Below are positions 3,886 through 26,013 of a stretch of 26,151 bases of DNA, one piece after another. The position numbers and the translations under genes were made by a program. A model generated the notes under the pieces. The model had not been told where the DNA came from and did not search any database. It was given only the letters and a program-made list of their open reading frames with translations. How positions within the stretch are numbered: the stretch's first letter is position 1; the number at the start of each line of letters is the position of its first letter. The DNA lies in IMG/VR virus record IMGVR_UViG_3300026077_000022, positions 1 through 26,151 of that record; one strand, written 5' to 3'. The stretch comes from a virus.

Positions 3886-3928
3886 GGGCGGGAATCAATG
3901 ATTCGCTCTTATTTCCGTAAGTCCCATA

Positions 3929-3948
3929 TGCCACTTCACAAAGTGGCA
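3929..3948. repeat. 20-bp dyad, copy G (perfect)
   Basis: TGCCACTT, spacer caca, AAGTGGCA: a perfect 8-bp inverted repeat. A -35 position 16 nt before the TATAAT at 3980 would begin 9 nt after it, as in the other copies. Confidence 0.85.
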
Positions 3949-3954
3949 CACCAT

Positions 3955-3985
3955 AACCCCAATTCGTAGGATTTGGGGTTATAAT
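3955..3985 (+). promoter_or_regulatory. Early promoter of the MutH-like gene, no recognisable -35
   Basis: TATAAT at 3980-3985. AACCCCAA (3955-3962) and TTGGGGTT (3973-3980) form an 8-bp hairpin ending on the first -10 base. The expected -35 position (3958-3963) reads CCCAAT, so activity may rely on the dyad upstream. A close relative of this arrangement occurs at 7296-7325. Confidence 0.65.
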
Positions 3986-4009
3986 AAGAATAACTGCAAC
4001 CGAAGTAGA

Positions 4010-4570
4010 ATGACTCTAACCCTCTCAGAGACTATACAAAAACTGCAAAATACAAACTTTGCGGAACTACCAAAACCCCGAAAAAATAAGGGGGTTCGGG
4101 GACAACTGTTAGAACTTGCGTTGGGGATACCCAATAGTTCAAAATTAACAGATTTGGTAGATGGAGAGTTAAAGTCCTATACTAAAGGGGAATCGGTTGC
4201 AGTTACTCAACTTAGACACACATTACCCGAAATTTTCAATAACACCCCTTTCAATCAGTCTAAGTTAGGAATCAAAATTTCCCGCACTTTATATGTTGCA
4301 TTTGATAGAAACAACAATTTTCTAGGAACTGCAACACATACAGAAACAAACAAATTAATTGAATCTGATTACTACAATATTTGCGACTACATCAGAAACG
4401 CAAAAACATTACACACATTTACAGGTAGTAACGGAATCTTACAAATCAGAACCAAAGACAGTAAAGACAGAAACGGAAACTACCACCCCATAATTTGGGA
4501 AGGTAAACAAATCTCAAATAAGGGGTTTGCGTTCTATCTTACAGGGAGATATGCAAAAGGTATCATATGA
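4010..4570 (+). CDS. MutH/Sau3AI-type restriction endonuclease-like protein
   Basis: A 186-residue protein with the catalytic signature of the MutH/Sau3AI branch of PD-(D/E)XK nucleases: GVRGQLLELALG (residues 28-39, Glu35), then a TDLVDGELKSY segment (47-57) supplying an Asp (48 or 51), Glu53 and Lys55. In MutH the equivalent residues are Glu56, Asp70, Glu77 and Lys79, with similar GQLLE and ELK context. Known relatives cut or nick at GATC; the specificity here is not visible and the protein is shorter than MutH (229 residues). Possible roles are host DNA degradation, mobility or repair. The leader lacks the C-rich element. A strong terminator follows about 50 nt later. Confidence 0.75.
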   Translation: MTLTLSETIQKLQNTNFAELPKPRKNKGVRGQLLELALGIPNSSKLTDLVDGELKSYTKGESVAVTQLRHTLPEIFNNTPFNQSKLGIKISRTLYVAFDRNNNFLGTATHTETNKLIESDYYNICDYIRNAKTLHTFTGSNGILQIRTKDSKDRNGNYHPIIWEGKQISNKGFAFYLTGRYAKGII

Positions 4571-4862: not shown

Positions 4863-5489
4863 ATGACAACTTTAACTTTAAACCCAGTTAAACAATACGT
4901 TTACATCATTGAGACAGGTAGAACAAACGGAAAGGTATCCGTAAGAATTGGAAAATCAAAAGACGTTGAGCAAAGAAGAAGGGGCATTGAAATGTATTGT
5001 CCAAATGCAAAAGTATTACATACATTCCACGTTGCAAACGACAACCCAACCGCACTACAAGTTGAAAAGAAAATTCAAAGAATGTTCCCAGTACAGAAAC
5101 AAGGGGGAGATAATTTTGAATTTAACTCTATCTACCTTGCAAACGTAGTAGTGCCACAAATTAAGGAGTTGGTAAGAGGTTTGAACGTGCAGGACATTCC
5201 CGCACCATCTGAAAAGGTTGCAACCCGTGAGATGAGCAAACAGGAGTATATGGCACTTAAAATTCAATTAGCAAAATTGAATAACAAAATGTCAAAGGGT
5301 CAGGAATTAGAGTTCTTTGAACAGGCACAAAGAAAGGAAATTGTGGACAGATTAGCAGAAGAGGCAAACAGAGAAAAGGCACTTGCAAAACTTAAATTCC
5401 TTAAGTTACAAGAGAAACGCAGAGCATACAAAGAGAAAAGAGCAAAGGAGCAGAGAGCGTTTCATTACTTAGCATACATTATGAGATAA
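4863..5489 (+). CDS. GIY-YIG/T5orf172-type nuclease-domain protein with coiled-coil tail
   Basis: A 208-residue protein. Residues about 11-95 match the T5orf172/Mug113 branch of the GIY-YIG fold: YVYIIETGR (12-20) as the first strand, VRIGKSKDVEQR (27-38) as the GIY-YIG-like strand and helix with Arg38, a probable metal-binding Glu68 in LQVEKKIQ, and GDNFEF (82-87). Residues about 117-208 are Lys/Glu-rich and almost certainly a long helix or coiled coil. Known members are putative DNA endonucleases in phages and mobile elements; activity here is inferred. It follows the MutH-like gene after a terminator and dyad promoter. The leader carries AACCCCTTT. The gene is Lys-rich and basic among acidic neighbours. 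Confidence 0.75.
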   Translation: MTTLTLNPVKQYVYIIETGRTNGKVSVRIGKSKDVEQRRRGIEMYCPNAKVLHTFHVANDNPTALQVEKKIQRMFPVQKQGGDNFEFNSIYLANVVVPQIKELVRGLNVQDIPAPSEKVATREMSKQEYMALKIQLAKLNNKMSKGQELEFFEQAQRKEIVDRLAEEANREKALAKLKFLKLQEKRRAYKEKRAKEQRAFHYLAYIMR

Positions 5490-9411: not shown

Positions 9412-10100
9412 TGAGTTCACTTATTTGTAATTTACCTGCTGTTGAATTATGGGTACGAAAGGAATACTTAACCGACCATCAAAGTGGTAAAGGTGAGTTT
9501 GTAAAGGGTGTATGGGTATCGGCTAAGAGTATTCCTGGTCGTGCCTTTTATTTTGAGACGTATTTACCCGAATATGCTGCGATTTATGATAAGTTGCCCA
9601 TATCCGCTTTTGTCTCGTCACCAGAAACACCCGATCCTGATATGCCATTGCATAATTTACAGTTTTGGAACTGTATGGACTACGGATTAACTGCAATTTG
9701 TAAGAATTTTATTGGGTCAATGCACTATGAAGTGTATACAAGAGACTTTGGAACACAAACAGGCACCTATATTTGTACTTTAGACAACTATCACGAAGAT
9801 ATTGACACTGTTGACTACTCAACAAGTGAGTCACCTGCTGAACACAAGTCTCATAACATCATTGAACTTGATAATGGGCAATATTGTCTCTATCCAAACA
9901 ACCGAATGAGGATTTATGACAATAGCATCACCCCAGAAACACCAAAAGTGCCTGATTTTAAGGTTTCAACCTCTTATTATCAGGTTGAGAATGGACATGA
10001 CCGTGATGGTCTAGGTTCAGAGGACAATTATTTTTGGAAAACATCAAAAGAACGTAAAGAAACGAACGATAGAAAACCATTTGAACCAGAATTGGGATGA
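9411..10100 (+). CDS. Conserved T4-like cyanophage protein, 229 aa
   Basis: Begins MSSLICNLPAVELWVRKEYL and has a distinctive GKGEFVKGVWVSAKSIPGRAFYF-type block (about residues 26-49, here split by a Ser), then FETYLPEYAAIYDKLPISAF, a central LQFWNCMDYGLTAICKNF (about 83-100), and an acidic hydrophilic C-terminus. I associate it with conserved hypothetical proteins in cyanomyoviruses; no function is known. It has no signal or membrane segment and looks like a folded soluble protein, possibly virion-associated. It is linked to both neighbours by overlaps (TAATG in, ATGA out). Confidence 0.78.
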   Translation: MSSLICNLPAVELWVRKEYLTDHQSGKGEFVKGVWVSAKSIPGRAFYFETYLPEYAAIYDKLPISAFVSSPETPDPDMPLHNLQFWNCMDYGLTAICKNFIGSMHYEVYTRDFGTQTGTYICTLDNYHEDIDTVDYSTSESPAEHKSHNIIELDNGQYCLYPNNRMRIYDNSITPETPKVPDFKVSTSYYQVENGHDRDGLGSEDNYFWKTSKERKETNDRKPFEPELG

Positions 10101-10447
10101 AAAACGTAAAAAATGCTCATATGGGCACTCATTTACTTGTTGAAGTGTATAATGTACCCTTTGATAAGTTAAATGATGTCAAAAAAATCGAACAAGTGTG
10201 CGTTGATGCTTGTAAAATTGAAGGAGTGCAGGTTTTAAACACTTATACTCACCAATTTGAACCTTACGGAGTGACTTGTACTCTATCTTTGGCAGAAAGT
10301 CATCTTTCTTGTCACACTTGGCCAGAAAAAGGGTGTGTTTCTTTCGATATTTTCACTTGTGGAGCGAAAAATCCACGGTGTGTTGCCTTTTGGGTGCTTG
10401 AATACTTCGATAGTGATGATTATGTGATGAATGATTATGCAAGATAG
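10097..10447 (+). CDS. speD: S-adenosylmethionine decarboxylase proenzyme (prokaryotic class)
   Basis: A 116-residue AdoMetDC that self-cleaves to a pyruvoyl enzyme and makes decarboxylated AdoMet, the aminopropyl donor for spermidine. The self-cleavage site is Glu67-Ser68 in LAESHLS, with Ser68 becoming the pyruvoyl group; His73 in SCHTWPEKG and Cys88 in FTCG match the processing His and catalytic Cys of the Thermotoga enzyme (Ser63, His68, Cys83) with a constant offset of five. Length suits the single-domain bacterial type, so all key residues appear intact. The start overlaps the upstream stop (ATGA), joining it to the structural-region operon; Met9 is a less likely start. speD is a known cyanophage auxiliary gene, presumably supporting polyamines during infection. 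Confidence 0.93.
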   Translation: MKNVKNAHMGTHLLVEVYNVPFDKLNDVKKIEQVCVDACKIEGVQVLNTYTHQFEPYGVTCTLSLAESHLSCHTWPEKGCVSFDIFTCGAKNPRCVAFWVLEYFDSDDYVMNDYAR

Positions 10448-10475: not shown

Positions 10476-10877
10476 ATGGCGATTCAACGCAAATCAAGAG
10501 CATTTAAGGATATAAGTCTGTCTTTTTCACCACATCCAGTGACAAAAGACCTTCCTGTGCTTGTAAATGAGCGAGCAGTAATCAGATCAGTGAGGAATTT
10601 AGTTGAAACAATACCTACAGAGAGGTTTTTTAACTCTCTTGTAGGCACTGACATTCGTGATATGTTGTTTGAAAATTATGATCGTACTCATGTAATGATG
10701 ATTGAAGAGCAAATTCGTGAAACATTGAGTAATTTTGAACCTAGAGTTAGTAATGTGGGTGCTACTGTTAAAGCTAAACCAGATGATAATACATTAGATG
10801 TATCTGTATTTTTTGATATTACTGGATTGGATTTACCAACTCAATCATTTTCCTTTATTTTAGAACCAACGAGATAA
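10476..10877 (+). CDS. gp25: Baseplate wedge protein gp25
   Basis: A 133-residue protein, matching T4 gp25 in length (132). The gp25/GPW domain covers most of it: ISLSFSPHPVTKDLPVL near the N-terminus, AVIRSVRNLVETIPTERFF (about residues 34-52) and the IEEQIRETLSNFEPRVS segment (about 77-93), then a beta-rich end. gp25 lies at the inner baseplate wedge and joins the gp6 ring to the sheath. It is preceded by a late promoter and followed after one base by gp6, as expected of a late structural operon. No Shine-Dalgarno is visible. Confidence 0.93.
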   Translation: MAIQRKSRAFKDISLSFSPHPVTKDLPVLVNERAVIRSVRNLVETIPTERFFNSLVGTDIRDMLFENYDRTHVMMIEEQIRETLSNFEPRVSNVGATVKAKPDDNTLDVSVFFDITGLDLPTQSFSFILEPTR

Positions 10878-10878: not shown

Positions 10879-12825
10879 ATGCCCTTTACACAGTTTACTA
10901 GTTTAGACTTTGCCGACATCAAAGTACAGATAAAAGATTTTCTTCGTTCAAATTCAAATTTCACTGACTTTGATTTTGAAGGTTCTAACTTCTCAGTTTT
11001 ACTTGATACCCTAGCATATAATACATATATTAATGCATTTAACGCAAATTTAGTTGCAAACGAATCATTTTTAGACTCTGCAACTTTAAGAGAGAATGTA
11101 ATATCACTTGCAAGGAATATTGGTTATGTACCACGTTCAAAAACCGCTGCAACAGCACAAGTTAGTATTTCTGATGTAAATGTAGGTGCGACAAATGATA
11201 ATACTACAAAGTTTTTAACCCTTCAAGCAGGTTTAGTTTGTGTAGGAAGTTCTGGTAATACAACTTATAGATTTTCTCTACCAGATAATATAACTTCAAC
11301 TAGAGTAGTTGATATAGGTGGTACATCATTTGCTAAATTTGATGAACCAATTACGATACATGAAGGAACTCTCCTTCAAAGAGTTTATCGTGTTGATGCG
11401 TCAATAGATCAAAGGTTTATAATTGATAGTCCGAATATTGATAGTTCAACTATAAGAGCATTTGTATCAGGACCTGCTGATGTTACCATTGGTCGAAAAT
11501 ATAAAATGGTAGACAATATATTGAATATTGATAAGAATTCAGAAATATTCCTTTCTCAGGAAGTGCAAGATGAAAAATATGAAATAATATTTGGTGATGG
11601 ATTATTCGGACGTAAGTTAGAGAATAATTCAGTTATAACAGTAAAGTATATTGTAACTGAAGGTGAAACTGGTAACGGAGCATCTAATTTTAGTTTCCAA
11701 GGTACTTTTACAAAAAGCGATGGAACAATCTTTACACCATCTGATAGTTTAACAGTAACTACCGTCTCAAACGCTTCTAATGGTGCTGAAGTTGAGGATG
11801 TGTCTTCTATTAAGTATTTTGCTCCAAGACTTTATTCAGCACAATATAGAGCAGTTACACCAAGAGATTATGAGGCAATAATTGGTACAATTTTCCCTCA
11901 AACAGAATCTGTAGCGGTTGTTGGTGGAGAGGAGTTAGACCCACCACAATTTGGAAAAGTTCAAATAAGTATCAAACCAAAAAATGGTACTTTTGTATCA
12001 GATTTTGATAAATCACAAATTAAAAATAAACTAAAGAACTACGCTATCGCTGGTATTAATTCTGAAATTGTTGATCTTAAACTACTATATGTGGAAATCA
12101 ATTGCACAGCATATTATAATCCATCACAAATAGCATCTGCAACGGATTTAAGAACTGGAATTATTAATTCATTAAATGAATATGCAAATAATGTAGAGAT
12201 TAATAAATTCGGTGGTAGATTTAAATACAGTAAAGTGAGTACTCTAATTGATCGTGTTGATAATGGAATTACCTCAAACATCACTAAAGTTATTATAAGA
12301 AGAGATTTGAAAGCACTGTTAAATCAGTTTGCACAATATGAATTATGTTATGGTAATAAATTTAATATCAATCCTGCAGGATTTAACGTCAAGAGCACAG
12401 GATTTACTATTAATGGTTTCAATGATACTGCTTATATTACTGACGTTCCAAATAAAAATGCCTCTGGAGCATTAGATGGAAGTATGAAGGGAACTCTTAG
12501 TATCGTAACTAAAAATAATAAAGGTGAACAAAGAGTTGTTGTAAAAGATGCTGGTATGGTTGATTATAAAAAGGGTGAGATCATATTAAATACTATTAAT
12601 ATCACATCAACTGTGAATCAAAATAATATAATTGAGATTCAAGCATTTCCTGAATCAAATGATGTAATTGGATTGAAAGATTTATATCTTAATTTTGACG
12701 TATCGAAAAGCACAATAAATACTGTGAAGGACGTAATTGCATCAGGAGAAGATGTATCAGGAGTCGTATTCCAGAGAGATTACTACACATCAAGTTACTC
12801 TAACGGAGATTTAGAGAGGAAATAA
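10879..12825 (+). CDS. gp6: Baseplate wedge protein gp6
   Basis: A 648-residue protein close to T4 gp6 (660). The N-terminal FTSLDFADIKVQIKDFLRSN and SNFSVLLDTLAYNTYINAFNANL blocks, the SLARNIGYVPRSKTAATA stretch (about residues 75-92) and the RLYSAQYRAVTPRDYEAII segment (about 316-334) are typical of gp6/baseplate J-like proteins. gp6 dimers form the continuous ring of the inner baseplate and contact gp25, gp53 and gp7. The ATG lies one base after the gp25 stop. The gene ends three bases before the giant gene, whose Shine-Dalgarno (GAGGAAAT) is within the gp6 end. Confidence 0.9.
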   Translation: MPFTQFTSLDFADIKVQIKDFLRSNSNFTDFDFEGSNFSVLLDTLAYNTYINAFNANLVANESFLDSATLRENVISLARNIGYVPRSKTAATAQVSISDVNVGATNDNTTKFLTLQAGLVCVGSSGNTTYRFSLPDNITSTRVVDIGGTSFAKFDEPITIHEGTLLQRVYRVDASIDQRFIIDSPNIDSSTIRAFVSGPADVTIGRKYKMVDNILNIDKNSEIFLSQEVQDEKYEIIFGDGLFGRKLENNSVITVKYIVTEGETGNGASNFSFQGTFTKSDGTIFTPSDSLTVTTVSNASNGAEVEDVSSIKYFAPRLYSAQYRAVTPRDYEAIIGTIFPQTESVAVVGGEELDPPQFGKVQISIKPKNGTFVSDFDKSQIKNKLKNYAIAGINSEIVDLKLLYVEINCTAYYNPSQIASATDLRTGIINSLNEYANNVEINKFGGRFKYSKVSTLIDRVDNGITSNITKVIIRRDLKALLNQFAQYELCYGNKFNINPAGFNVKSTGFTINGFNDTAYITDVPNKNASGALDGSMKGTLSIVTKNNKGEQRVVVKDAGMVDYKKGEIILNTINITSTVNQNNIIEIQAFPESNDVIGLKDLYLNFDVSKSTINTVKDVIASGEDVSGVVFQRDYYTSSYSNGDLERK

Positions 12826-12828: not shown

Positions 12829-15800
12829 ATGTCACAAATTGACAAAAGAATACAAGTCAATACTATCATTAAAAATCAGTTACCAGAATTTGTGGTATCT
12901 GATTTTCCGAATGCTACTGAATTTTTAAAACAATATTACATATCACAAGAGTTTCAAGGTGGTGCTCAAGATTTAATTACTAATTTTGACCAATATTTAA
13001 AAGTTGAAAACTTAGTTCCTGAAGCAGTTGTAGGTGTAACAACCATCTCTGCAGCGATATCAACTTCTGATACTACTATAACAGTTCCTAGTACTAAAGG
13101 TTTTCCATCTGAATATGGATTACTTAAGATAGATGATGAAATAATTTCATATACAGGTATAACTTCGACAACTTTTACAGGATGTATTCGTGGTTTTAGT
13201 GGTATTACAGGATATAATGTTGGTATTTCTTCTTCTTTACTGGATATAAATCAAGAGAGTTTAAAATTTAACAGTACACTAGCAGCATCTCACACATCAG
13301 GGTCATCACTAACAAATTTATCAGTATTATTTCTCCAAGAGTTTTTCAAAAAGTTTAAGAAAACTTTTTTACCTGGATTAGAAAATAATGATTTTGCAGA
13401 TAATTTGGATGTAGGCAACTTCTCAAAGTTTGCTCGTTCATTTTATCAGTCAAAAGGTATTGAAGAGTCTGTAAAAATTTTATTTAAGGTATTATTTGGA
13501 GTTGAAGCAAGAGTTCTTGATTTAGAAGGAAATCTAATAAAACCATCTGACGCTGAATTTATAAGAAGAGAAGTAGTTGTAGCAGACTTAATTACACCAA
13601 ATGGAGAACCACAGAACTTAACTGGACAAACAATATTTAAATCAACCGATACATCAACAAATGCATCTGTATCTGAAGTAGAAATTATAAAAAGAGATGG
13701 AAAAAATTATTTTAAACTTGCTTTATTTGTTGGATTTAGTGACCGTGACTTAATTGAAGGAGTTTTTACAGTACCAGGTAATACAAAAGTTTTAGATGAT
13801 GTTACTGCAGGTGCTACAATAATTAATGTTGATTCAACTGTTGGGTTTGGTACAACTGGTACTATAATTAGCGGTACTAATTCTGAGATAAATTATACAT
13901 CAAAGTCAATAAATCAGTTTTTTGGATGTAGTGGGATTGGAGTAGGTATAGGTACTGCAGATGATATTAGGGCAAATGAAACAATTTTTGGTTATGAAAA
14001 TGGAGATTTATCAAAAAGAATTGATTTAAGAATCACTGGTGTATTATCTGAGTTAGTTCCAATCACTGATATTAGTCTTATTAATGAGGGAGAAAATTTC
14101 TTTGTTAAAAATATTGGTGAAAAGATTGAAAATGATAGCGAAAATTATAAACAAATATTTGCTAACTCTTGGATTTACAACACAAGTTCTAGATTTCAAG
14201 TTGATATACCAGTTGGAGGTTCAACCTTTACATTAAGAACTCCTATTGATAAATCTTCACTTAAGGTAGGTGATAGATTTGATATATTAAAGAGAAATGA
14301 ACAAGTCATTGCTGGTAGTGGTACTATCGCTAGTATCAACGTTGGACTAAATCAGATTACAGTATCTAACATAGCTGGATTTACACAAGACGCAAATCAA
14401 TTATATGATATTCGTAGAAAAGTTGAAAAGGTAACTAGCTCTGGAGTCAATATTTTCAAAGGCAATGAATCAATTATTGCAGATACTTTAAGTGTATACA
14501 CTGATGGTAATGAAGATGGTTACGTTGCATCTAACTCTTTACCAAGTTATGACATTACTACTGATATAATTGAAGAGACTCTTACAGGAGGAACTGCTGC
14601 TGGATTAGATGGTTTTAATCCATTAAATGATAGATATAGTTTTATTAATTTTAATATTAGTCGAAATTTAAAATTCATTCAGGGTGATGCTGTTACTTAT
14701 TTACCTGAAGGTGATGGACTTGTTGGATTAGACACTGGAAGAACATATTTTGTAGATCCTGTGTTACCTGAACCAGGACAAGATATTACAAAAATTAGAA
14801 TATTTAACTCTTTAGCACAAATTGGTTCTGCAAGCACAGTTCAGGTAGGACCAACTACTTCCACCTCTGATGTACATAGATTTGTATTAGAGAAGCATAA
14901 AAGCAGAACATTAGATGCAGATAAGATATTAAGAAAAATACCTTTATCTCAGAACCTATTTGTAAGCTCAAATCAGGATATACCTACAACTGATATTGGA
15001 ATATTAATTAATGGTGTACAAGTACGTTCACCTATTTCAGATAATCAAATTTATTTTGGTCCTCTTGAATCAATTGATTTATTAAATTCTGGAAGTGAAT
15101 ATGATGTTGTCAATCCACCAATAGTAGGTATTGAGACAAGTAGTGGTGTTGGTGCAGCAGTTGAACCAATAATTCAAGGTACAGTTAAACAAGTTTTTGT
15201 TGACCCCCAAGAATTTGACATTGATGCAATTCAAAGTATTTCATTGACTGGTGGTAATGGTAGTGGATGCGTCTTACAACCAATTTTAGGAACTAGAAAT
15301 AGAGAACTACTGTTTGATAGTAGAGATATTTTCTTTAACGGTGGTGTTGACATAGTAAATGAAACTATAACCTTCAAAACTGCTCATAATTTAGATGACG
15401 GACAACTTGTTTATTATGGATCAAATGGTAATGACCCAATTGGTATCGGAACTGCCTTTGATTTACTAAATCAAGTTGCTGGAACATTATCCGATGGTGC
15501 TCCATATTTTGTAAGGTCTATTAATCCTACCACAGTCAGAATATTTAATACTAGAGTAGATGCATTATTTGGCACCGCAGGTATAAACACTGTTGGTTTA
15601 TCGACTGATACATCTGCAAGTGGTATTCATAAATTTAGAACAGAAAATAAAAATACATTAGTTGCAATTAAGGTTCTAGAGGAAGGTTCAGGATATACAC
15701 ATCGTAAATTAAGAGTAAAACCTACAGGTATATCAACATCATTGAATGTTGTTACATTTAAGAATCACGGTTTTGAAAATGGTGAAATTGTTGAGTATTC

Positions 15801-18800
15801 TGCAGAAACAACAGCAATACAAGGTTTAACAACAACATCCTCATACTTTATCAACAAATTAACAAATGATACATTTCAATTAGCAGATGCTGGTATTGGT
15901 GGAACTTCTACAGTAGATTATAATAGAGGAAAATATGTCAATTTCACTTCATCAGGTGAAGGATTCCAGATATTTAATTATCCTCAGATAAAGGTAAATG
16001 TTGATGTATCTTATGGTTCAACAATTACAGGTGATATAATAATTACTCCTGTTGTTACAGGTGAATTGATTGGTGGATATCTATATGAACAAGGAACAAA
16101 CTATGGTTCAACTACACTTGATAAAGAAGTTGTACCTAAAGTTACCATTGAAAATGGAAAATTTGCTGAGTTCAAACCAATTATTGTAAATGGTAGAATT
16201 ACTGATGTTGCAGTTGTAAACAGAGGAAGAGAATATAATTCACTTCCAGATATTAGAGTAATATCAACAGGTTCAGGAGCTGGTGCTGTTGTTCGTCCAG
16301 TTATAGAGAATGGGCAAGTAATTGATGCTATAGTAACAAATACTGGTATTGGATACAGTAGTGTTTCTACAGAAGTTAGAGCATTTTCAAGAGGTTCTAA
16401 TGGAAGTTACATTGCAAGAGTAAGAAGTTTAACTTTAAATAATACTCACAGATTTGGTGATTCATTCTTATCTGAAAAAGAAGATTCTCTAAAATTTAGT
16501 ATTTTAGGTTACTCTCAAGAGATAGCAAATAATTTTGAAAAAACATTCAGTGTAAATTCAAATGGTGAATTTAATCAGATAACTGGTCACTCTCCAATTG
16601 TAGGATGGGCATATGATGGCAATCCAATATATGGTCCTTTTGGATATTCAGATCCTGCAAATATTAACTCTGATTTAAAAATTATACAACCATCATACGT
16701 AACTGATATTAATAGGGTTGAAAATCGTCCAGCAGGTTATGCAGCAGGATTTTTTGTAGAAGACCACGTATATAACGGAACAGGTGATTTAGATATTCAT
16801 AATGGAAGATTTGGTAAAACACCAGAGTTTCCTAATGGTGTTTATGCATATTTTGCCACTGTTGGTTTAGGAACTGGAACAAACAAATTAGAAGGACAAT
16901 ATCCATATTTTATTGGTAATACTTATCGCTCACCATTTATTGCAGAAAATCAACTATTAAATCAAGATTTTGATTTCAATAACTCAGGATTGAGAAGAAA
17001 TACACTACCATACAATGTCGATGAAAAATTTGCAGGAAATGATTTTGTAACAGAATCTTATGAAACAATAAGACAAATATCTAAAATTGAATCTGTAACT
17101 AAAGGTGGTGTTGATGGATTTACTATACTGAATGGTGGTACAGGATATAAAGTTGGTGATATTACTGAATTCGATGATGAGGGTACTAATGGTTCAGGAT
17201 TCCGTGCACAAGTTGATGAAATCGTCGGTATTGGAATATCTAGAATCGATACTACAATTACTCCATTTGAAGGAGCAGTATTTGAGTGGAAGAGTGGAAG
17301 TGAAGTTCAGGCAAATTTCTTACCATTCATTGAACTTAATGATCAAACTTCAGTAGCCATATCTGGTTTAAGCAGTTCGATTGTTAATTTAACAGATTCA
17401 TTTAGTGTTGGTATTAAGACTGACAAAATTGGTCTTGCAAAATCTATGACTGTCGGTGCTGTTGGTGGTTTAATTCAAGACATTTATGTAACAGAAATAC
17501 CTAATTCAATTGCTATTGGAGGTTCATTAAGAGTTGGTTCTGGAAATACATCAGATGTTGAAACTCTAAAAGTATTAAACTTACATCCACTCAGAAAAGT
17601 AATAAGAGTTTTAAGACATACAGGTATTGCTCATACTTTAGGTTCACACGTTGATGTACTTAATAATAAAATCAGTATTCCAGTCAAGACAAGTAAATTC
17701 AATTCAGAAGTAAATGATATAGTATATTTCAATGGTCCACAATCTGTTGGAGTTGGAACAACATCTGGTGGTGCAATTAATGTAGATAGAGTTACTGGAG
17801 AAATAAAAGAAACTGTTTCTATTCCTACTAGAACAATACATATCCCAAATCACCCATTTAAAACTGGTCAAAAACTATTTTTAAATAAAAGAGTTGGTGC
17901 AAATAGATTTGATGTAGGTAAATCACCCTTTGTTACTGAATTTAAATTACCTTTCTTAGGTGCAAATAGGACTGAAGTTTATGTAATTAATAAAGATGAA
18001 AATAATATTGGTCTTGTAACATCAAGAGTTGGAACTGCAACAACAAGTGAAGGATTATTCTTCTATAGTAAAGGTTCAAATACAGGTATTTCTTCAGGTT
18101 TATATTTCTTTGAAACTGATAAAGAACAAATAACAGGAGATATTGATAAGATTGTAACCAGAGTATCTACAAATGTTGCAGCAGCAAATACCACAACTCA
18201 TAATTTAGTTGAAGGTGACATTATTAGAATGAATGTTGTTCCAAATCTTAATGTTGGTCTTGGTAATACAACACCTATATCCGTAAATTATAATGAAGCA
18301 TTTGAAAAGTTAATTATAAATCCAATTTTATTCAATGCTGCAGATGTCGAAACAAACCAGATAGACATAGTTGATCATGGATTTGAAACTGGTGATAAAG
18401 TATTCTATGATGGTGGGGCAACTGGATTGAGCACAGGCACCTATTTTGTTAATAAAGTAAGTAGTCGAAGATTCCAACTCTCTGAGACAATTGAAGATAA
18501 TAGGGCAAATCCAGTTAGAACTGTAAATATTACTGCAAATACTGGTGGTAATAATCAATCAATCGGATTGATAAATCCAAGAATTGATGTTGTTAAAAAT
18601 TCAAAATTAAATTTTGGATTGACAAGTAGCACATTATTAAATTTTGACTTTAAATTATTTTACGATAGACAACTTACCAACGAATATTTGAGTTCACAAG
18701 ACTCTCCTTCATTTAATGTTGGAACTGGTGGTACGATTGGTATAGGTACAAATAATGTTGACCCTGTAGGTGCTGGTCTGACTGTACAATATTCTGCATC

Positions 18801-21800
18801 TTCACCTGGTAGATTATATTATGGATTAACAAAAGGTGGATTTATTAGTACTGCCGATACTGAGGTTTCTAATTACTCTGAAATAAGATTTATTGATAGT
18901 AAGTATAATGGAGAATATAAGATATCTAATGTGACTCCAGATACTTTTGATATTTCACCAGAAATACCTGAGTTCTTAAGTTATAATTCTGGTGATTGTG
19001 AAAAGTTAGAGTATTCAACAAAATCTACTAATGTTCATGGTCAGATAAAAGATTTAAATATCATATCTCCTGGTTTTAATTATAAAAAATTACCACAATT
19101 TAAATCAGTTAAGAGCACAAACGGAACTGACGCTAACATAATTGCATCATCTAGAAATATCGGAAGAATCAAAAAAATAAGAATCGTTGATATTGGATAT
19201 GAATATTCTTCAGATAAAACCTTAAGTCCAGAGGCATTTATATCACCTGTTGTAAACATTGATAATCTTGATATTATTGATTCAGTTAATATTGTAAGTG
19301 GTGGTGCTGATTATATGAGTACACCTAATTTACTAGTATTCAATCCCGTAACTAATACAGTTGTAGATACACTTTCACTACAGGCATTTACACCTAATCA
19401 AACAATATCGAAAGTAGACGTATTATCACCAGTTACTGGATTAGATTCAGTTGTTCATAAGATTATCTCAATTAATAATTCTAATGGAGTTGGAATTAAC
19501 TCACTTCAAGTAAGTAATTCTGGAGTTGTAACTTGTTTCCTTGAAACTCCTATCAATGGATTTGAAAATCAACCGTTTGCAGTTGGAGATCAAGTTTATG
19601 TTGAAGGTATACAAAGAGTCGGAGAAGCAGGAATAGGTGCCACACAGGGTGGAATATCAACTAATACTAGTGTTGAAGGAACTGGATATAACTCTGATAA
19701 TTATAACTATCAATTCTTTAACGTAGATGACTATATCGTTGGAACACAATGTATTTTAAAGTTTAGTACAGCAGGTGTTACAACCAATCCTGGTATCGCT
19801 AAAACTTTCCAATCTGGTTATGCTACATTAATCAATAAGAAAAAGTATCCTGTTATTGAACCAGTTCAATCAAGAGGTGTCTTTGAATTGAAGGAGACTC
19901 TAATTGTTGACAGTGTAATAACAGATTTAAAAGTTATTGAAGTTAGAAATGATTACATTAAAATTGATGGTAAATTCAAAATTAAAAAAGGTGATAGAAT
20001 AAAAGGTGAACTTAGCAATGTATCTGCTGAAATTACAAGTATTGTTGATAATCAAGCTAAATTTACCACTGATTTTTCAAATAGACAGGATTATGGATGG
20101 TTAGATGATATTGGTAAACTAAATGAAGACTATCAAGTTATACCTGATAATGATTACTATCAAAACTTATCTTACACAGTTAAGAGTTCAGTTGAATGGG
20201 AAAAATTTGTAAATCCAGTTAATCGTTTAGTTCATCCATCAGGATTAAAGAATTTTGCTGATACTGCAATTACATCTAATCTTCAAGTTGGAGTTGGAAG
20301 TGTTCGTGAATCAAATCAGACTGTTGTTTTAGATGTTGGTAATGTATTAGAACTTAATGATAAGCAAAGAGTTGATGCGATTAATAATTTTGATTTTGCA
20401 AGAGATTTTGACACTAGAGTTAATGGTTCTAAGTTTTTAACATTCAAAAATAGAACTCTTACAGATTTCACTAGATGTAAAACTAACAGAGTTTTATTAC
20501 ATGATGATATAAGTGAAAACTTCTCAAGTGAAGGATTTGAAAGCACCAATACAGTTATTGAACCACTCATTGAAGATTTTGGAAATTATCTTGTACAAAT
20601 TGTTGATCCTGATAATTTTGATACTCAATTTACAGAATTAGTCACATTAACAACTGAAAGCAATGCATTTATACTAGAAAAATCCACTGACTTTACAACA
20701 GTAAAATTAGGTGATTTTGATACTGAAATATTAGCAACTGGAACTAAAAATTTACTATTTACACCTACAGAGAAATTTACTAAAGATCATGATATAAAAC
20801 TTCTTAAAATTGATTTTAATACAGACTTAACAGGAATAGGTACAAATGGAATAGGAAGTGTTGATTTGACTGGTATAAATGCAGGTATAGGAAGCACATC
20901 AGTTGGATTTACTACTACTACATTTGCACAGTTCCCTAAAACAGATTTCAATTCATTATACGCAACTATTTTTGTTCAGGATAGTGTAACTAAAGAAATT
21001 AATTATAATGAAGTTATTGTCGATTTTGATGGTGTTGATACAACAATCGCTGAAACATATATTGATACAAAAACTGAATTAAGCAATAGTGTGGTTGGAG
21101 TAATTACTGCAAGATTTGAAAATGACTTTATCAAACTACAATGTGAGAATGATAGAGTTAACACTCTTGACCTTAGAGCAAATATTGTAGGGTTGGGAAC
21201 AACAACTACTGGAATTGGAACCTATAGATTCTCAGTTGCAGGTCAACCACAGGGTTCAGAAAGAAGTGCTAGATTAGAATCTGGATATGTTACTGGGACT
21301 GCAAGCACAATTACATATGCTACACTAAACAAATTAGTTGATAGTTCTGTTAAATCGTTAGTTAGAGTTTCTTGTGGAGAAACTTCCGCTGTCCATCAAG
21401 TCATATCGATTCGTGATGTTGATGATATTTTGACAGTTCAATATCCATTCGTATCTGCTGGATCTACTACAGGTATTGGTACATTTGGTGGTGAGATAAG
21501 TGGTGATAATATTAATTTAAGATTCTACCCAGATGCAGAGTTTGAGTCTTTAATTGAAGTTCAATCATACAATCAGATATTGTATACAGTAAGTGATTTT
21601 GAGAATACTCCACCAGATTTAACTTATGGTACAGTAAATCAACAAATATTGTTAACAACTTATGATGGTGCTGCAGGTCTCAGAGCAAATAAGAAAGATT
21701 TTGTATTGAAGCATAAAGAAGTTCCAATTTACTCTAAAACATTTAATCCAGCAGGAACGATAAGCACAACTACAAGCACAATCAATATTAACAGTCATTT

Positions 21801-24800
21801 CTTTAATGATAATGAAGAATTAACATACACTCCAGATTCAACATTCATCGGAATTGCAGGTACAGCAATTTCCATAGGATCAACAGCAAATATTGCTGGA
21901 GTAGTAACTACTTTACTACCAAGTACTGTTTACGCAAAAGTTGTAGATGAAAATCAATTCCAATTATTTACAAGACCTGAATATGTTTTATCAGGTAATC
22001 CAGTAACATTTACAGGAATTGGTGCTGGTAATGCACATAAGTTGTCTATGAGAAAACAACTTACCAAAACTATCATTGGTTTGGATGGTGTTGTTCAGCA
22101 ACCTATTTCTTTCACTTCAATAACACATAATTTAGGAATCTTTGATGGATTTACACATAATAATGGCATTGGTATTGGACTATCACAATTTGTACTAAGT
22201 GGAATTGGTTCTGTTGCACCAAGAGATTTCCTTAAAATTGATGATGAGTATGTTAAAGTTACAGAAGTTGGATTTTCAAGCATACCTACTGGAGTTATAA
22301 ACGATTCGACTGATGTATCACTTGGTATTGCAACTCTACCAGTTGTTAAAGTTGATAGAGGTCAATTAGGTATCGCAGCAACTTCACACGCAGCAAACGC
22401 AACTGCAAGGGTTCATAGAGGAGCGTTCAATATAGTTGATAGTACAGTGTTCTTCTCCGATCCTCCAAAGGGTAATAATAGATCAAGAAGAGATGAAACT
22501 AACTTACCTTTTGTAAGAGCAAACTTTAGTGGCAGAACATTCTTAAGAAGTAACTACACAACAAATATGTTGTTTGATGATATCTCTGACAACTTCACAG
22601 GTATAGGTAAAACATATACCTTAACTGTTGGTGGTGCAAATACTTCTTCAGGTATTGGCGTAGGAAATGGAGTTCTATTCATCAATGGCGTATTCCAGAC
22701 TCCTAAAACTGTCAATAATACTGGAAGTAACTATGAATTTATTTCAGACACAACTGCTGGTATATCAACTGTACAGTTTAGTGGTATAACATCTACAAAC
22801 GGTGATTTTATTGTATCCGAATTTGATATAAACCAAAACCAAGTTCCTAGAGGTGGACTTATAGTTTCATTAGGTTCAACACCAGGCACAGGATATGCAC
22901 CACTACAAGGAGCAAAAGTAAAAGCATTTAAAGATGCAAATGGTGGAATTACAAGTGTTGTTGGTATCGCAACATCATCTGGTTTTAATCTTGGTATTCA
23001 AACCGCATCGTACGATAATATAACTGGTATTATTACAGTTACAACAGATAAGGTTCATGGTTTTGCACTTGAAAGACCAAACACAGTCAAACTTAAAGGA
23101 TTAGAGTTTAGATGTCCTAAGACAGTTGTTGGCACACCTACAAACGCAACTTACAATCCAGCAAATGGTGTACTGGTATTAACTATTGCTAATCATGGAT
23201 TGACAAATGGTGATGCAGTAGTTCTTGACACAGGTTCAATTTGCTTTACTTGTTCAAAAGATAGTAATAATTCAACTCATTGTTATCCTCGTGCGACTGA
23301 CCCTGCTGCTGGTCAATATTTAACAGTCAGTAACGTTACTACAAATACTTTCAGAGTTAATGTTGGTGCATCTGCTCCAAGTGATCAATATACTCATACA
23401 TTTGTTTCTGCTGCTGCAAACTCAGTTAAGACTATTGGTGGCGGTGGGTATGTTGGTGTTACAACTACAATTTTCCAAGACCACGAAAGACCTCTATTTG
23501 TTGTTGGTATAGTTTCTGATAGAACATTTGAAGTTCAAGCGGGTGCAAGTACAATACCACACACTTATCAAGGTGGCGGTAATGCATTCGAGTTCTTTGA
23601 AGATCTTACATTTGGTTCAGGATATCGTGGTGGTTCTGTTGCGATTGGTGTTACAGACCAAGCATATGTTCATAGATTTGTAAGTGCTGGTATCAATTCT
23701 ATTCGTAAGGGTAATTTTGCTGCAACAGGTGCAAATGCATTTACAGCAACAAACGCAGTTTATACATCTCATTCAGGACAATTAGTTCTAACAATACCAA
23801 ATCACGGATTGTCTACAAGTGATACAGTTGGTATTGACACTGGTGGATTAGTATTTAAATGCTCAAAAGATAACTTCTTCTCTGATCATCCATATCCTCG
23901 TTCAGTATCCAAGACAAGTTTCCCTAATTCAGATCCTATTGCTGGTATTCAAACTGCAATTGTTGCAACTACAAATAATACAATTACTTTAAATGTTGGT
24001 GCTGGAGGTGGCGGTGGAACGGGTGCACAAATATCTGCAGTAGTTGGTGCAGGTGGTACATTAGCACTAACAATTACTTCTGCTGGTTCAGGATATGTAA
24101 ATCCTGAAATTATTATACCAGAACCAAATTATGATAATTTACCAGTTATTGGTATATCAAGAGTTGGGCAGGGTTCAACTACGGACACAGGTTCAAACTT
24201 ATTAATTGATGTGAAAGTAAGTGCAGCGAAAACAACAGTAGGTATTGGTTCAACAACTTTTGAAATATCTGAATTTTCCATCGCAAGACCTGGTCATTCA
24301 TTCAAAGTTGGTGATAAATTCAAACCTGTTGGATTAGTTACAGCAGCACATCTATCTTCACCAATACAAGAGTTTGAATTAGAGGTTACTCAAATATTCC
24401 AAGATAAATTCTCATCTTGGCAATTCGGTGAAATAGACTTTATAGATTCAATAGGTAACTTACAAGATGGTTCAAGAACAAGATTCCCATTATTCTTCAA
24501 TGGACAATTACTAAGTTTTGAAAAAGACCTTAATAATGCTCGCTCACAATTAATTGATTTGAATGCTGTTCTTCTTATATTCATAAATGGTGTGTTACAA
24601 GAACCTGGTTCTTCATATACATTTGAAGGTGGCACAACATTTGAATTTGAGGAAGCACCAAGAGAAGAGGCAAAGGTTGATATATTCTTCTATAAGGGAC
24701 AGGATGGAGTTGATGTAGATACTGCAGATATTCAACAAACAGTTAAAATTGGTGATGAGGTTAGATTATTCAAGCATGCTGTTGGAGTTTCTACTTCACA

Positions 24801-26013
24801 ACAAGCAGAAAGAACAGTTAAAGAATTATTAGGTGCAAAACTTCTAGAGACTGACATTTATACTGGTGCAGGTATTGATGAAAAAAATATTAAACCACTT
24901 AGATGGACTAAACAAAAAGTCGATATCATCTTAGGTGGTAAGAAAATAGATAAGTCAAGAGAAATTCTTGAACCACAAGTTTATCCAACTTCAAAGATTA
25001 TCGGTGATTTTACATCAACATCTGGACAAGGAAGTACAAATGGAATATTTGTAGATGATGCAGAAGTATTCTTCTATGAAAAAGGAGATCATTTAAGTGC
25101 AAGTAATCCTGATGAGACTGATGGCGATTATAATTTAGAATACAGCACTGTAGATGCTCTTGTAACTTCTGGTGAAATTAACGTTGGTGCATCTGCAACA
25201 GCAATTGTATCCTCTGCAGGAACCATCACATCTCTTAATATAACAAACGCAGGTTCTGGATATGCGAGTGCAACGATTAAAATAAGTGCACCACCTGTTA
25301 TTGGAGTTGGAATTGGAAGTACAGCAACAGCTACTGCAACTATTACTAATGGCACAGTTACTTCAACATCAATCGTGAATCCTGGTTTAGGTTATTCAAA
25401 TCTAACACCCCCACAAGTAATTATTGATTTACCACAATTTAAGACAGAAAAAGTTACTTCTATAGACAACGTAGAGGGATTCACTGGTATCATAACTGGT
25501 ATCAGCACAACCACAGTAAGTGGTCAATCTGCACTTAAGTTCTTCTTTAGAGCAGATAAAACAGCAAATTCATTGTTAGTTGGTTATCCAGTGTTTATTA
25601 AAGATACAACAGTGGGAACTGGTATTACATCTGTTGATACTCATAATTCATCTATAGTAAGTATAGGTTCAACTTTCTTAGATAATATCTATAAGGTTCA
25701 TGCAATAACATCTACAGGTGAAAATGGTGAAATTACTTGCAATATTCTTAATGGTCAAACCACTGGAGTAGGAGCAGGATTAACAGGAAACTTTGATAAT
25801 ACTAATCCTGGCATCGCTACTCACTTAGGTCGAATCAGTTGGGGTAGATTATATAATGCATCAAGAAATAGTAGTCCTATTTCTATTGGAGTTACAGGAT
25901 TAACAGTCAATACAGGATTGACAACATTCCCAACTATACAAAGAAAGAACTACACTGTAGCATCTCTAAGGGGTCTTAGATCATCAGGTGCAATCAGAGT
26001 GTTTGGACTTTGA
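12829..26013 (+). CDS. Giant repeat-rich virion structural protein with YHYH domain, 4394 aa
   Basis: An uninterrupted 13.2-kb gene in the T4 gp7 position. The N-terminus (MSQIDKRIQVNTIIKNQLP) and a helical segment (about 164-244) look like a baseplate attachment region. Much of the rest is beta-rich repeats: about a dozen GxGY units (for example ITSAGSGY, ITNAGSGY, VTNTGIGY, VLEEGSGY), HGFxxGDxVxY...YFVxxVxxxxFQL units, INGVxQ units and LKIDDE...SHAA units. A YHYH domain covers about 1253-1345 (HSPIVGWAYDGNPIYGPFGY, then DLDIHNGRFGKTPEFPNG). Two adjacent copies of one module lie at 3439-3513 and 3642-3724. T4 gp7 has 1032 residues, so this may combine gp7-like wedge and fibre-like functions; that is inference. 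Start chosen for its strong GAGGAAAT site. Confidence 0.88.
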   Translation: MSQIDKRIQVNTIIKNQLPEFVVSDFPNATEFLKQYYISQEFQGGAQDLITNFDQYLKVENLVPEAVVGVTTISAAISTSDTTITVPSTKGFPSEYGLLKIDDEIISYTGITSTTFTGCIRGFSGITGYNVGISSSLLDINQESLKFNSTLAASHTSGSSLTNLSVLFLQEFFKKFKKTFLPGLENNDFADNLDVGNFSKFARSFYQSKGIEESVKILFKVLFGVEARVLDLEGNLIKPSDAEFIRREVVVADLITPNGEPQNLTGQTIFKSTDTSTNASVSEVEIIKRDGKNYFKLALFVGFSDRDLIEGVFTVPGNTKVLDDVTAGATIINVDSTVGFGTTGTIISGTNSEINYTSKSINQFFGCSGIGVGIGTADDIRANETIFGYENGDLSKRIDLRITGVLSELVPITDISLINEGENFFVKNIGEKIENDSENYKQIFANSWIYNTSSRFQVDIPVGGSTFTLRTPIDKSSLKVGDRFDILKRNEQVIAGSGTIASINVGLNQITVSNIAGFTQDANQLYDIRRKVEKVTSSGVNIFKGNESIIADTLSVYTDGNEDGYVASNSLPSYDITTDIIEETLTGGTAAGLDGFNPLNDRYSFINFNISRNLKFIQGDAVTYLPEGDGLVGLDTGRTYFVDPVLPEPGQDITKIRIFNSLAQIGSASTVQVGPTTSTSDVHRFVLEKHKSRTLDADKILRKIPLSQNLFVSSNQDIPTTDIGILINGVQVRSPISDNQIYFGPLESIDLLNSGSEYDVVNPPIVGIETSSGVGAAVEPIIQGTVKQVFVDPQEFDIDAIQSISLTGGNGSGCVLQPILGTRNRELLFDSRDIFFNGGVDIVNETITFKTAHNLDDGQLVYYGSNGNDPIGIGTAFDLLNQVAGTLSDGAPYFVRSINPTTVRIFNTRVDALFGTAGINTVGLSTDTSASGIHKFRTENKNTLVAIKVLEEGSGYTHRKLRVKPTGISTSLNVVTFKNHGFENGEIVEYSAETTAIQGLTTTSSYFINKLTNDTFQLADAGIGGTSTVDYNRGKYVNFTSSGEGFQIFNYPQIKVNVDVSYGSTITGDIIITPVVTGELIGGYLYEQGTNYGSTTLDKEVVPKVTIENGKFAEFKPIIVNGRITDVAVVNRGREYNSLPDIRVISTGSGAGAVVRPVIENGQVIDAIVTNTGIGYSSVSTEVRAFSRGSNGSYIARVRSLTLNNTHRFGDSFLSEKEDSLKFSILGYSQEIANNFEKTFSVNSNGEFNQITGHSPIVGWAYDGNPIYGPFGYSDPANINSDLKIIQPSYVTDINRVENRPAGYAAGFFVEDHVYNGTGDLDIHNGRFGKTPEFPNGVYAYFATVGLGTGTNKLEGQYPYFIGNTYRSPFIAENQLLNQDFDFNNSGLRRNTLPYNVDEKFAGNDFVTESYETIRQISKIESVTKGGVDGFTILNGGTGYKVGDITEFDDEGTNGSGFRAQVDEIVGIGISRIDTTITPFEGAVFEWKSGSEVQANFLPFIELNDQTSVAISGLSSSIVNLTDSFSVGIKTDKIGLAKSMTVGAVGGLIQDIYVTEIPNSIAIGGSLRVGSGNTSDVETLKVLNLHPLRKVIRVLRHTGIAHTLGSHVDVLNNKISIPVKTSKFNSEVNDIVYFNGPQSVGVGTTSGGAINVDRVTGEIKETVSIPTRTIHIPNHPFKTGQKLFLNKRVGANRFDVGKSPFVTEFKLPFLGANRTEVYVINKDENNIGLVTSRVGTATTSEGLFFYSKGSNTGISSGLYFFETDKEQITGDIDKIVTRVSTNVAAANTTTHNLVEGDIIRMNVVPNLNVGLGNTTPISVNYNEAFEKLIINPILFNAADVETNQIDIVDHGFETGDKVFYDGGATGLSTGTYFVNKVSSRRFQLSETIEDNRANPVRTVNITANTGGNNQSIGLINPRIDVVKNSKLNFGLTSSTLLNFDFKLFYDRQLTNEYLSSQDSPSFNVGTGGTIGIGTNNVDPVGAGLTVQYSASSPGRLYYGLTKGGFISTADTEVSNYSEIRFIDSKYNGEYKISNVTPDTFDISPEIPEFLSYNSGDCEKLEYSTKSTNVHGQIKDLNIISPGFNYKKLPQFKSVKSTNGTDANIIASSRNIGRIKKIRIVDIGYEYSSDKTLSPEAFISPVVNIDNLDIIDSVNIVSGGADYMSTPNLLVFNPVTNTVVDTLSLQAFTPNQTISKVDVLSPVTGLDSVVHKIISINNSNGVGINSLQVSNSGVVTCFLETPINGFENQPFAVGDQVYVEGIQRVGEAGIGATQGGISTNTSVEGTGYNSDNYNYQFFNVDDYIVGTQCILKFSTAGVTTNPGIAKTFQSGYATLINKKKYPVIEPVQSRGVFELKETLIVDSVITDLKVIEVRNDYIKIDGKFKIKKGDRIKGELSNVSAEITSIVDNQAKFTTDFSNRQDYGWLDDIGKLNEDYQVIPDNDYYQNLSYTVKSSVEWEKFVNPVNRLVHPSGLKNFADTAITSNLQVGVGSVRESNQTVVLDVGNVLELNDKQRVDAINNFDFARDFDTRVNGSKFLTFKNRTLTDFTRCKTNRVLLHDDISENFSSEGFESTNTVIEPLIEDFGNYLVQIVDPDNFDTQFTELVTLTTESNAFILEKSTDFTTVKLGDFDTEILATGTKNLLFTPTEKFTKDHDIKLLKIDFNTDLTGIGTNGIGSVDLTGINAGIGSTSVGFTTTTFAQFPKTDFNSLYATIFVQDSVTKEINYNEVIVDFDGVDTTIAETYIDTKTELSNSVVGVITARFENDFIKLQCENDRVNTLDLRANIVGLGTTTTGIGTYRFSVAGQPQGSERSARLESGYVTGTASTITYATLNKLVDSSVKSLVRVSCGETSAVHQVISIRDVDDILTVQYPFVSAGSTTGIGTFGGEISGDNINLRFYPDAEFESLIEVQSYNQILYTVSDFENTPPDLTYGTVNQQILLTTYDGAAGLRANKKDFVLKHKEVPIYSKTFNPAGTISTTTSTININSHFFNDNEELTYTPDSTFIGIAGTAISIGSTANIAGVVTTLLPSTVYAKVVDENQFQLFTRPEYVLSGNPVTFTGIGAGNAHKLSMRKQLTKTIIGLDGVVQQPISFTSITHNLGIFDGFTHNNGIGIGLSQFVLSGIGSVAPRDFLKIDDEYVKVTEVGFSSIPTGVINDSTDVSLGIATLPVVKVDRGQLGIAATSHAANATARVHRGAFNIVDSTVFFSDPPKGNNRSRRDETNLPFVRANFSGRTFLRSNYTTNMLFDDISDNFTGIGKTYTLTVGGANTSSGIGVGNGVLFINGVFQTPKTVNNTGSNYEFISDTTAGISTVQFSGITSTNGDFIVSEFDINQNQVPRGGLIVSLGSTPGTGYAPLQGAKVKAFKDANGGITSVVGIATSSGFNLGIQTASYDNITGIITVTTDKVHGFALERPNTVKLKGLEFRCPKTVVGTPTNATYNPANGVLVLTIANHGLTNGDAVVLDTGSICFTCSKDSNNSTHCYPRATDPAAGQYLTVSNVTTNTFRVNVGASAPSDQYTHTFVSAAANSVKTIGGGGYVGVTTTIFQDHERPLFVVGIVSDRTFEVQAGASTIPHTYQGGGNAFEFFEDLTFGSGYRGGSVAIGVTDQAYVHRFVSAGINSIRKGNFAATGANAFTATNAVYTSHSGQLVLTIPNHGLSTSDTVGIDTGGLVFKCSKDNFFSDHPYPRSVSKTSFPNSDPIAGIQTAIVATTNNTITLNVGAGGGGGTGAQISAVVGAGGTLALTITSAGSGYVNPEIIIPEPNYDNLPVIGISRVGQGSTTDTGSNLLIDVKVSAAKTTVGIGSTTFEISEFSIARPGHSFKVGDKFKPVGLVTAAHLSSPIQEFELEVTQIFQDKFSSWQFGEIDFIDSIGNLQDGSRTRFPLFFNGQLLSFEKDLNNARSQLIDLNAVLLIFINGVLQEPGSSYTFEGGTTFEFEEAPREEAKVDIFFYKGQDGVDVDTADIQQTVKIGDEVRLFKHAVGVSTSQQAERTVKELLGAKLLETDIYTGAGIDEKNIKPLRWTKQKVDIILGGKKIDKSREILEPQVYPTSKIIGDFTSTSGQGSTNGIFVDDAEVFFYEKGDHLSASNPDETDGDYNLEYSTVDALVTSGEINVGASATAIVSSAGTITSLNITNAGSGYASATIKISAPPVIGVGIGSTATATATITNGTVTSTSIVNPGLGYSNLTPPQVIIDLPQFKTEKVTSIDNVEGFTGIITGISTTTVSGQSALKFFFRADKTANSLLVGYPVFIKDTTVGTGITSVDTHNSSIVSIGSTFLDNIYKVHAITSTGENGEITCNILNGQTTGVGAGLTGNFDNTNPGIATHLGRISWGRLYNASRNSSPISIGVTGLTVNTGLTTFPTIQRKNYTVASLRGLRSSGAIRVFGL
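16585..16863 (+). other. YHYH domain inside the giant protein
   Basis: Residues about 1253-1345. It contains the family hallmarks GHSPIVGWAYDGNPIYGPFGY and, after a variable loop, a DLDIHNGRFGKTPEFPNG segment and YAYFAT. YHYH domains occur in many bacterial secreted proteins; their biochemical role is not well known. Here it is presumably exposed on the baseplate. Confidence 0.8.
23143..24000 (+). repeat. Duplicated module in the giant protein
   Basis: Copy 1 (23143-23367) and copy 2 (23752-24000) encode related modules: NGVLVLTIANHGLTNGD against SGQLVLTIPNHGLSTSD, TCSKDSNNSTHCYPR against KCSKDNFFSDHPYPR, and both end in NVG. The sequence between them contains YTHTFVSAAANSVK and YVHRFVSAGINSIR, a second paired element, so the unit of duplication is about 200 residues. 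A Gly-run (GAGGGGG) follows copy 2. Confidence 0.75.

Follow-up and report, generated by a model that had tools for sequence, protein, structure and literature searches.

Giant gp7 of P-SSM2-like cyanophages: a fixed composite of repeat units with one recombining cassette

In phage T4, the baseplate wedge protein gp7 is a monomer present in six copies per tail and gp9 is a trimer, giving 18 copies; the gp9 N-terminus sits on gp7 while its C-terminal domain holds the long tail fibre (PMC3004832). Cyanomyoviruses are without recognisable g10, g11, g12 and g34-37 (PMC2984593). Their gp7 can be far larger than the 1032 residues of the T4 protein. The gp7 of P-SSM2 (Salacisavirus, Kyanoviridae), which belongs with the profile phrog_2885, has 5195 aa, and the P-SSM4-type gp7 (T4-GC 397) has 7312 aa. 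Among other phage proteins relevant to the domains described below, the barrel of the K1F endosialidase binds polysialic acid and is a hotspot of host discrimination whose sensitive residues include S460, S468 and G504 (PMC12632334). Giant gp7 proteins of T4-like cyanophages are thus a known kind. A triplet of predicted gp9-like domains and a recombining cassette within them are undescribed as far as we found; our literature searches, for which subscription papers were largely outside reach, returned no published account of gp7 repeats or cassette exchange.

A giant gp7 downstream of gp25 and gp6

The window analysed is a viral contig of 26,151 nucleotides. Most of its second half is occupied by one open reading frame of 4394 codons, preceded by two baseplate wedge genes.

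10476..10877, + strand: gp25, baseplate wedge (Pfam GPW_gp25, E=3e-11)
10879..12825, + strand: gp6, baseplate wedge (67% identity to P-SSM2 gp6; phrog_219)
12829..26013, + strand: giant gp7, baseplate wedge protein, 4394 aa (phrog_2885 profile, gene order, T4 gp7 match)
13441..13719, + strand: T4-gp7-like core domain, aa 205-297 (HHalign to T4 gp7; profile match to KP1 gp7 in the PDB)

The giant ORF matched phrog_2885 'baseplate wedge subunit' end to end (E=0; ORF aa 3-4373 against profile positions 5-4178 of 4179). The order gp25-gp6-gp7 is that of P-SSM2, with the contig ending before the gp8 side, and identity to P-SSM2 gp7 is about 56% over the gene. Residues 734-811 of T4 gp7 aligned with aa 205-297 of the giant (HHalign 94-95%, score 78 versus 24 for the reversed control), and an N-terminal profile of the giant matched KP1 gp7 729-814 among PDB sequences at E=0.01. 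No alignment of T4 gp7 with the giant was obtained outside aa 205-297, and a search of PDB sequences with the whole giant protein gave no match. Taken together, the profile match, the gene order and the T4 gp7 domain match identify the ORF, at the level of sequence, as the gp7 of a P-SSM2-like virus that infects marine cyanobacteria. By the same kind of evidence, homology to T4-type gp7 runs through one domain only. Like its T4 counterpart the protein sits after gp6; unlike it, the giant carries additional arm domains that do not align with T4 gp7.

The surroundings of the gene gave several further observations. An S-adenosylmethionine decarboxylase gene (PF02675, E=1e-31) lies at 10097-10447, immediately upstream of gp25, and S-SRM01 has the same gene near gp25. 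In a region of small ORFs, 4010-4570 gave a weak MvaI/BcnI-type restriction endonuclease match just below the cut-off and 4863-5489 a weak match to the T5orf172 (GIY-YIG-like) domain; these may be homing or nuclease genes. Among related genomes, gp7 is broken by frame changes into four ORFs in S-SKS1 (L084, 11974-24367), the first two pieces carrying no annotation in the record, and into three in L022 (6402-19577), through either sequencing error or real splitting.

Repeat families in the giant protein

A sequence-only reading of the window had described at least four repeat families interleaved along the protein, marked by GxGY, HGFxxGD, LKIDDE and INGVxQ motifs, and had proposed that a composite domain was shuffled and that the protein grew in modules by recombination. 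Profile analysis resolved the following units, designated L (LKIDDE), H (HGFxxGD type), G (GxGY), I (INGVxQ), X and C. Bits are scores of leave-one-unit-out HMMs where marked 'left-out'.

13027..13197, + strand: L unit 1 (LKIDDE), aa 67-123; HHalign 92% with L unit 2, leave-one-out HMM failed
13771..13941, + strand: L unit 2, aa 315-371; HHalign and HMM
14614..14913, + strand: H unit 1, aa 596-695; left-out 7.6 bits against a shuffle maximum of 7.2, the weakest passing unit
15043..15240, + strand: G unit 1 (GxGY), aa 739-804; left-out 15.7 bits
15295..15666, + strand: H unit 2, aa 823-946, predicted FCCH-like beta-barrel; left-out 38 bits, Z <=8.1 to E1 FCCH
15697..16002, + strand: H unit 3, aa 957-1058, predicted FCCH-like beta-barrel; left-out 35 bits, Z 7.7 to Uba1
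16150..16383, + strand: G unit 2, aa 1108-1185; left-out 31.5 bits
16585..16866, + strand: YHYH domain, aa 1253-1346; Pfam PF14240, E=4e-23
17083..17268, + strand: G unit 3, aa 1419-1480; left-out 12 bits, shuffle maximum 5.3
17773..18105, + strand: H unit 4, aa 1649-1759; 21.6 bits by an HMM built without unit 4, left-out 23 bits
18298..18588, + strand: H unit 5, aa 1824-1920; left-out 33 bits
19009..19470, + strand: G units 4 and 5, aa 2061-2132 and 2135-2214; left-out 16.8 and 10.8 bits
20542..20856, + strand: X unit 1, aa 2572-2676; HHalign with X2 and X3 34-36, null maximum 22
20911..21189, + strand: X unit 2, aa 2695-2787, predicted to fold like the C-terminal domain of T4 gp9; Z 13.4 to 1qex 169-287
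21346..21606, + strand: X unit 3, aa 2840-2926; HHalign with X2 38.5, null maximum 25; Z ~7 to tailspike C-terminal parts
21727..22071, + strand: H unit 6, aa 2967-3081; left-out 39.8 bits
22138..22308, + strand: L unit 3 (LKIDDE), aa 3104-3160; HMM 49 bits with its own sequence in the seed, leave-one-out failed
22660..22803, + strand: I unit 1 (INGVFQ), aa 3278-3325; HMM, weak
22981..23118, + strand: housing unit of the cassette, left half, aa 3385-3430; uninterrupted in cassette-free relatives
23119..23445, + strand: C cassette, aa 3431-3539 (HGLTNGD...FTC...CYPRATDP); presence/absence among relatives
23446..23628, + strand: housing unit of the cassette, right half, aa 3540-3600; uninterrupted in cassette-free relatives
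23737..24033, + strand: second C unit, aa 3637-3735; HHalign 99% with the cassette
24007..24231, + strand: G unit 6, aa 3727-3801; HHalign 91% with aa 4115-4155, leave-one-out not passed
24562..24672, + strand: I unit 2 (INGVLQ), aa 3912-3948; HMM, weak DUF4183 match (E=0.008, aa 3907-3937)
25171..25413, + strand: G unit 7 (two half-units), aa 4115-4195; left-out 24 bits

Profile self-comparison of the giant by HHalign yielded 185 off-diagonal window matches at a score of at least 40, and the reversed profile yielded 0. Leave-one-unit-out HMMs recovered seven of eight H units and six of seven G units above all shuffles. The G unit consists of two half-units of about 40 aa each, as illustrated by aa 4117-4147 aligning with aa 4162-4191 at 77% (HHalign). 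Three L units start at aa 67, 315 and 3104, and HHalign joined aa 67-119 with aa 315-367 at 92%; two I units start at aa 3278 and 3912. Neither L nor I units passed the leave-one-out HMM test. On these profile statistics the H and G families are solid and the L and I families weak. The three tandem X units aligned with one another at HHalign scores of 34-38.5, versus maxima of 22-25 from 32 null windows. C units are a Cys-containing 'YPR' variant of the HGF class (HGLxxGD...FTC...YPR).

The motif sites of the sequence-only reading all fell in the single 4394-aa frame within about 20 nt of where it had put them, and many proved to be loose variants. Strict GxGY occurs 10 times in the giant (shuffle mean 1.4), yet only five of the ten places listed were strict, the others reading GSEY, GREY, FNY, ADY and so on. 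HGFxxGD occurs strictly once, the other five places listed being loose variants. LKIDDE was correctly seen twice, near 13110 and 22210 (0 in shuffles), and a third unit, L unit 2, was overlooked, as were H units 1 and 4. INGVxQ stands as a weak two-unit family by HMM, and its proposed member at 15003 was unsupported by HMM and leave-one-out tests. Several interleaved families do exist; the X family was not separated in that reading, and the C units were lumped with HGFxxGD. Alternation holds for H and G units but not for X, with three in a row, or for C. Profile alignment within a class, which the same reading had made its own test, succeeded for two of its four classes (H and G), L and I failing on leave-one-out.

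Two of these modules also deserve mention for where they occur. The YHYH domain lies within gp7 between G units, and its motif WAYDGNPIYGPFGY is nearly invariant in relatives. A G unit is present near aa 200-260 in gp8 of the same phages (L082-L087, e.g. L082 29619-31220), making the G module common to two neighbouring wedge proteins, gp7 and gp8.

Predicted folds of the H and X units

The predicted model of aa 590-1400 was good (pLDDT 89); in that of aa 2560-3560 the X block was good, about aa 3215-3385 poor and the cassette reasonable. In the first model, H units 2 and 3 superimposed on the E1 FCCH domain with Z up to 8.1 (rmsd 2.5 over 78 residues), and H unit 3 on Uba1 (Z 7.7), the phi92 endosialidase barrel (7.1) and endoNF (6.2, residues 424-505). 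Overall, the likeness to E1 FCCH and endosialidase barrels (4hiz, 3gvk) spans Z 6-8 over 71-79 residues. These barrels made up 31 of the 33 top rows of structural matches to H units, at Z values (~8) near the level of common arrangements. The H units gave no Pfam sequence match at E<1 with single sequences. The best Foldseek hits for aa 590-1400, to RNA polymerase Si3 (E ~0.015, probability 0.04), were whole-chain matches of beta-rich proteins and were discarded. The models thus point, with moderate strength, to H units being FCCH-like beta-barrels. In contrast to E1 and the endosialidases, the unit is repeated eight times here with no enzyme domain nearby.

The predicted model of X2 matched the C-terminal domain of T4 gp9 (1qex 169-287) with Z 13.4 and rmsd 2.7 over 115 residues, and KP1 gp9 (9f4a_LA) with Z 10.9. 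X1 gave no separate match to this fold. The modelling places a gp9-type C-terminal beta-sandwich in the X block as a predicted fold. A gp9-C profile scored 15-19 against the giant and against X1-X3, within the null, and the X profile searched against PDB sequences returned only a chance match to a designed protein. Because there is no sequence-profile link, the likeness is one of predicted fold, and common descent of X and gp9 does not follow from it. The gp9_10 N-terminal domain (PF07880) was absent from the giant and from all seven X-type genomes. In T4, gp9 is a separate homotrimer; here three such predicted domains stand in tandem within gp7, lacking the gp9_10 motif.

Among 15 cyanophage genomes, X was present in all seven chosen for X and in none of the eight chosen for gp9, with no exception; the gp9_10 N-terminal domain and the full gp9 profile showed the reverse distribution in the same 15. 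Gene order is gp7-gp9-(one more gene)-gp8 in P-SSM4 and gp7-gp8 in P-SSM2. P-SSM4-type gp7 is likewise giant, with L, G and I units and 13 C units, but has no X, no H above threshold, a separate gp9 and a further gene before gp8. The two phage groups may differ by a single ancestral event. Three X units per gp7 chain, times six, would give 18 gp9-C-like domains per baseplate, the T4 figure. By analogy with T4, mutual exclusion and this count are suggestive of a fibre socket residing in gp7. That X replaces gp9 is itself to be read as analogy, since the N-terminal attachment motif is all that the cyanophage gp9 has in common with its T4 namesake. Tentatively, then, the fibre socket might be built into gp7, the three gp9-C-like domains forming an intramolecular pseudo-trimer per wedge in place of homotrimeric gp9, with the arm beyond bearing the recombining host-contact cassette.

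The X block might instead be a tailspike-type trimerisation or carbohydrate-binding module unrelated to gp9 function. X2 also matched tailspike C-terminal parts in the predicted model; for X2 and X3 these came from Acinetobacter and Klebsiella phages at Z 7-10. An X-like domain also adjoins a tail-fibre gene in S-SRM01. We consider this account unlikely, though worth keeping in view: the best match is T4 gp9 itself, and X and gp9 exclude each other.

In S-SRM01 (L101, 220498-220758), the hypothetical protein QPX48298.1 contains one X3-like domain (E=3e-6) and is encoded next to a putative tail-fibre gene; this was the sole X-like match beyond gp7 among the 15 genomes. The P-SSM4 'gp9' (L090/L092, record 79112-80341) combines the gp9_10 N-terminal motif with a C-terminus cupredoxin-like in look (YYQCTIHAAM); further large proteins encoded by P-SSM2, S-SKS1 and Sf-CH5 have this C-terminus as well.

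A fixed unit order and a recombining 109-aa cassette

HMMs for H, C, G, L, X and I were used to read unit order in 39 full-length gp7 homologues of 36-90% identity. The order in the giant, LLHGHHGHHGGXXXHLI[C]nIG, was identical in 39/39 relatives, down to 36% identity, with sub-threshold drop-outs and a few extra calls. Indels of at least 40 aa were concentrated at aa ~3378-3740. The number of C units per gp7 ranged from 0 in S-SRM01 to ~11, in a row, in P-SSM2, while other families varied little; the present gp7, otherwise of the same unit order as P-SSM2, has two complete C units and the housing unit. Given the same order throughout the relatives, the composite gp7 is old and frozen, with C as its one growing array. 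C units are also present in the 7312-aa gp7 of P-SSM4, and tblastn with a C unit hit 327 phage records, each of which is catalogued as a cyanophage or a marine virus.

Two other insertions were observed. The first LKIDDE unit is split in L025 and L036, which are not sisters in the tree, by a 70-aa insertion after the aa 110 equivalent; this may mark another cassette site, rarer than the main one. There was no support for counting these insertions, or those that L066 and S-T4 have at aa 3022, as additional copies of any known unit.

The cassette at aa 3431-3539 is a C unit inserted in a loop of another unit. Exactly these 109 aa are missing in L003, L007 and others, including close relatives 85-90% identical that lack the same piece. 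The housing unit reads ...VKLKNLEFSCVGYSGVTTTIFQDHE... when uninterrupted and ...VKLKGLEFxCPKTVVG[...]TIGGGGYVGVTTTIFQDHE... when interrupted. On the gene tree, cassette presence/absence required 10 changes, which does not improve on shuffled labels (mean 11.0). Three sufficed when the tree was built from the flanks (3380-3430 plus 3540-3625), and none of 1000 shuffles was as low; trees of aa 3250-3376 and 3625-3720 showed no agreement with cassette state. Thus, cassette state tracks the local flanks and not the gene tree, as befits a recombining cassette.

The class-wide synonymous difference at the cassette flanks was slight (0.362 vs 0.374, p=0.026) because synonymous sites are near saturation. 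Individual pairs were therefore used, and only recent exchanges are visible. L025 and L032 differ in the cassette at 3% of amino acids and 17% of synonymous codons, versus 39% and 43% elsewhere. In a same-pair test (p<0.001) with a fixed set of pairs across control and hotspot windows, significantly low pairs numbered 0/153 in six control windows and 2/45, 8/153 and 2/148 in the three hotspot windows. These sequence comparisons support the cassette being a small homologous-recombination hotspot at which tracts of a few hundred bases are exchanged among relatives.

The repeats could be neutral or structural spacers that set arm length, making C-copy variation irrelevant to the host. A copy number that runs from 0 to ~11 while the gene is kept would suit such spacers, and simple beta repeats are common in tail proteins. 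The cassette, however, is exchanged between lineages together with its flanks, which is more than slippage in number, and C units occur in ACG-2014j ORFs annotated 'tail fiber-like' and 'short tail fiber'; we give the spacer account perhaps one chance in a few. The view of the sequence-only reading, in which recombination shuffled all families along the protein and modular growth is ongoing, retains the point that the unit classes are homologous and interleaved, so that duplication and mixing once occurred. It is nevertheless improbable as a description of these phages, given one unit order across the relatives, large indels clustered at one site and control windows without exchange. Its observation was largely right and its interpretation right at one locus only, the aa ~3378-3740 region that makes up about a tenth of the protein. 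Finally, it is very improbable that chimeric metagenome assembly or faulty alignment created the pattern of cassette presence/absence: the relatives are mostly metagenome contigs, but the missing piece is exactly 109 aa, the cassettes that were exchanged stem from different samples and have diverged at 16-17% of synonymous codons, and isolates and reference genomes show both states (present in P-SSM2 and S-T4, absent in ACG-2014f and S-CAM7).

The explanation we favour, and consider somewhat better than even, is that gp7 is a composite arm, frozen in its unit order, that contains its own fibre socket and a single cassette open to exchange. We infer these functions, including the rim arm, X as socket and C/H barrels on the host surface, from predicted folds and T4 biology. 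The short T4-gp7-like core domain would place gp7 in the wedge, and the C-terminal nine tenths, a fixed series of small beta domains, would form an arm at the baseplate rim. The H units would be FCCH-like barrels, a fold that binds host polysaccharide in phage endosialidases. X1-X3, as tandem gp9-C-like sandwiches in phages without gp9, would form the long-fibre socket within one chain. The C units would be H-type modules at a recombination hotspot, where whole cassettes are swapped between relatives, and such swapping would most simply serve to alter the contacts of the arm with the host surface.

This analysis offers a candidate fibre socket in marine T4-like phages without known T4 fibre genes, and, for a virus group that is among the commonest in the ocean, 109 codons as a precise address of diversification. 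If true, the conversion of a homotrimer into one polypeptide with three domains would clearly exemplify covalent consolidation within a contractile machine.
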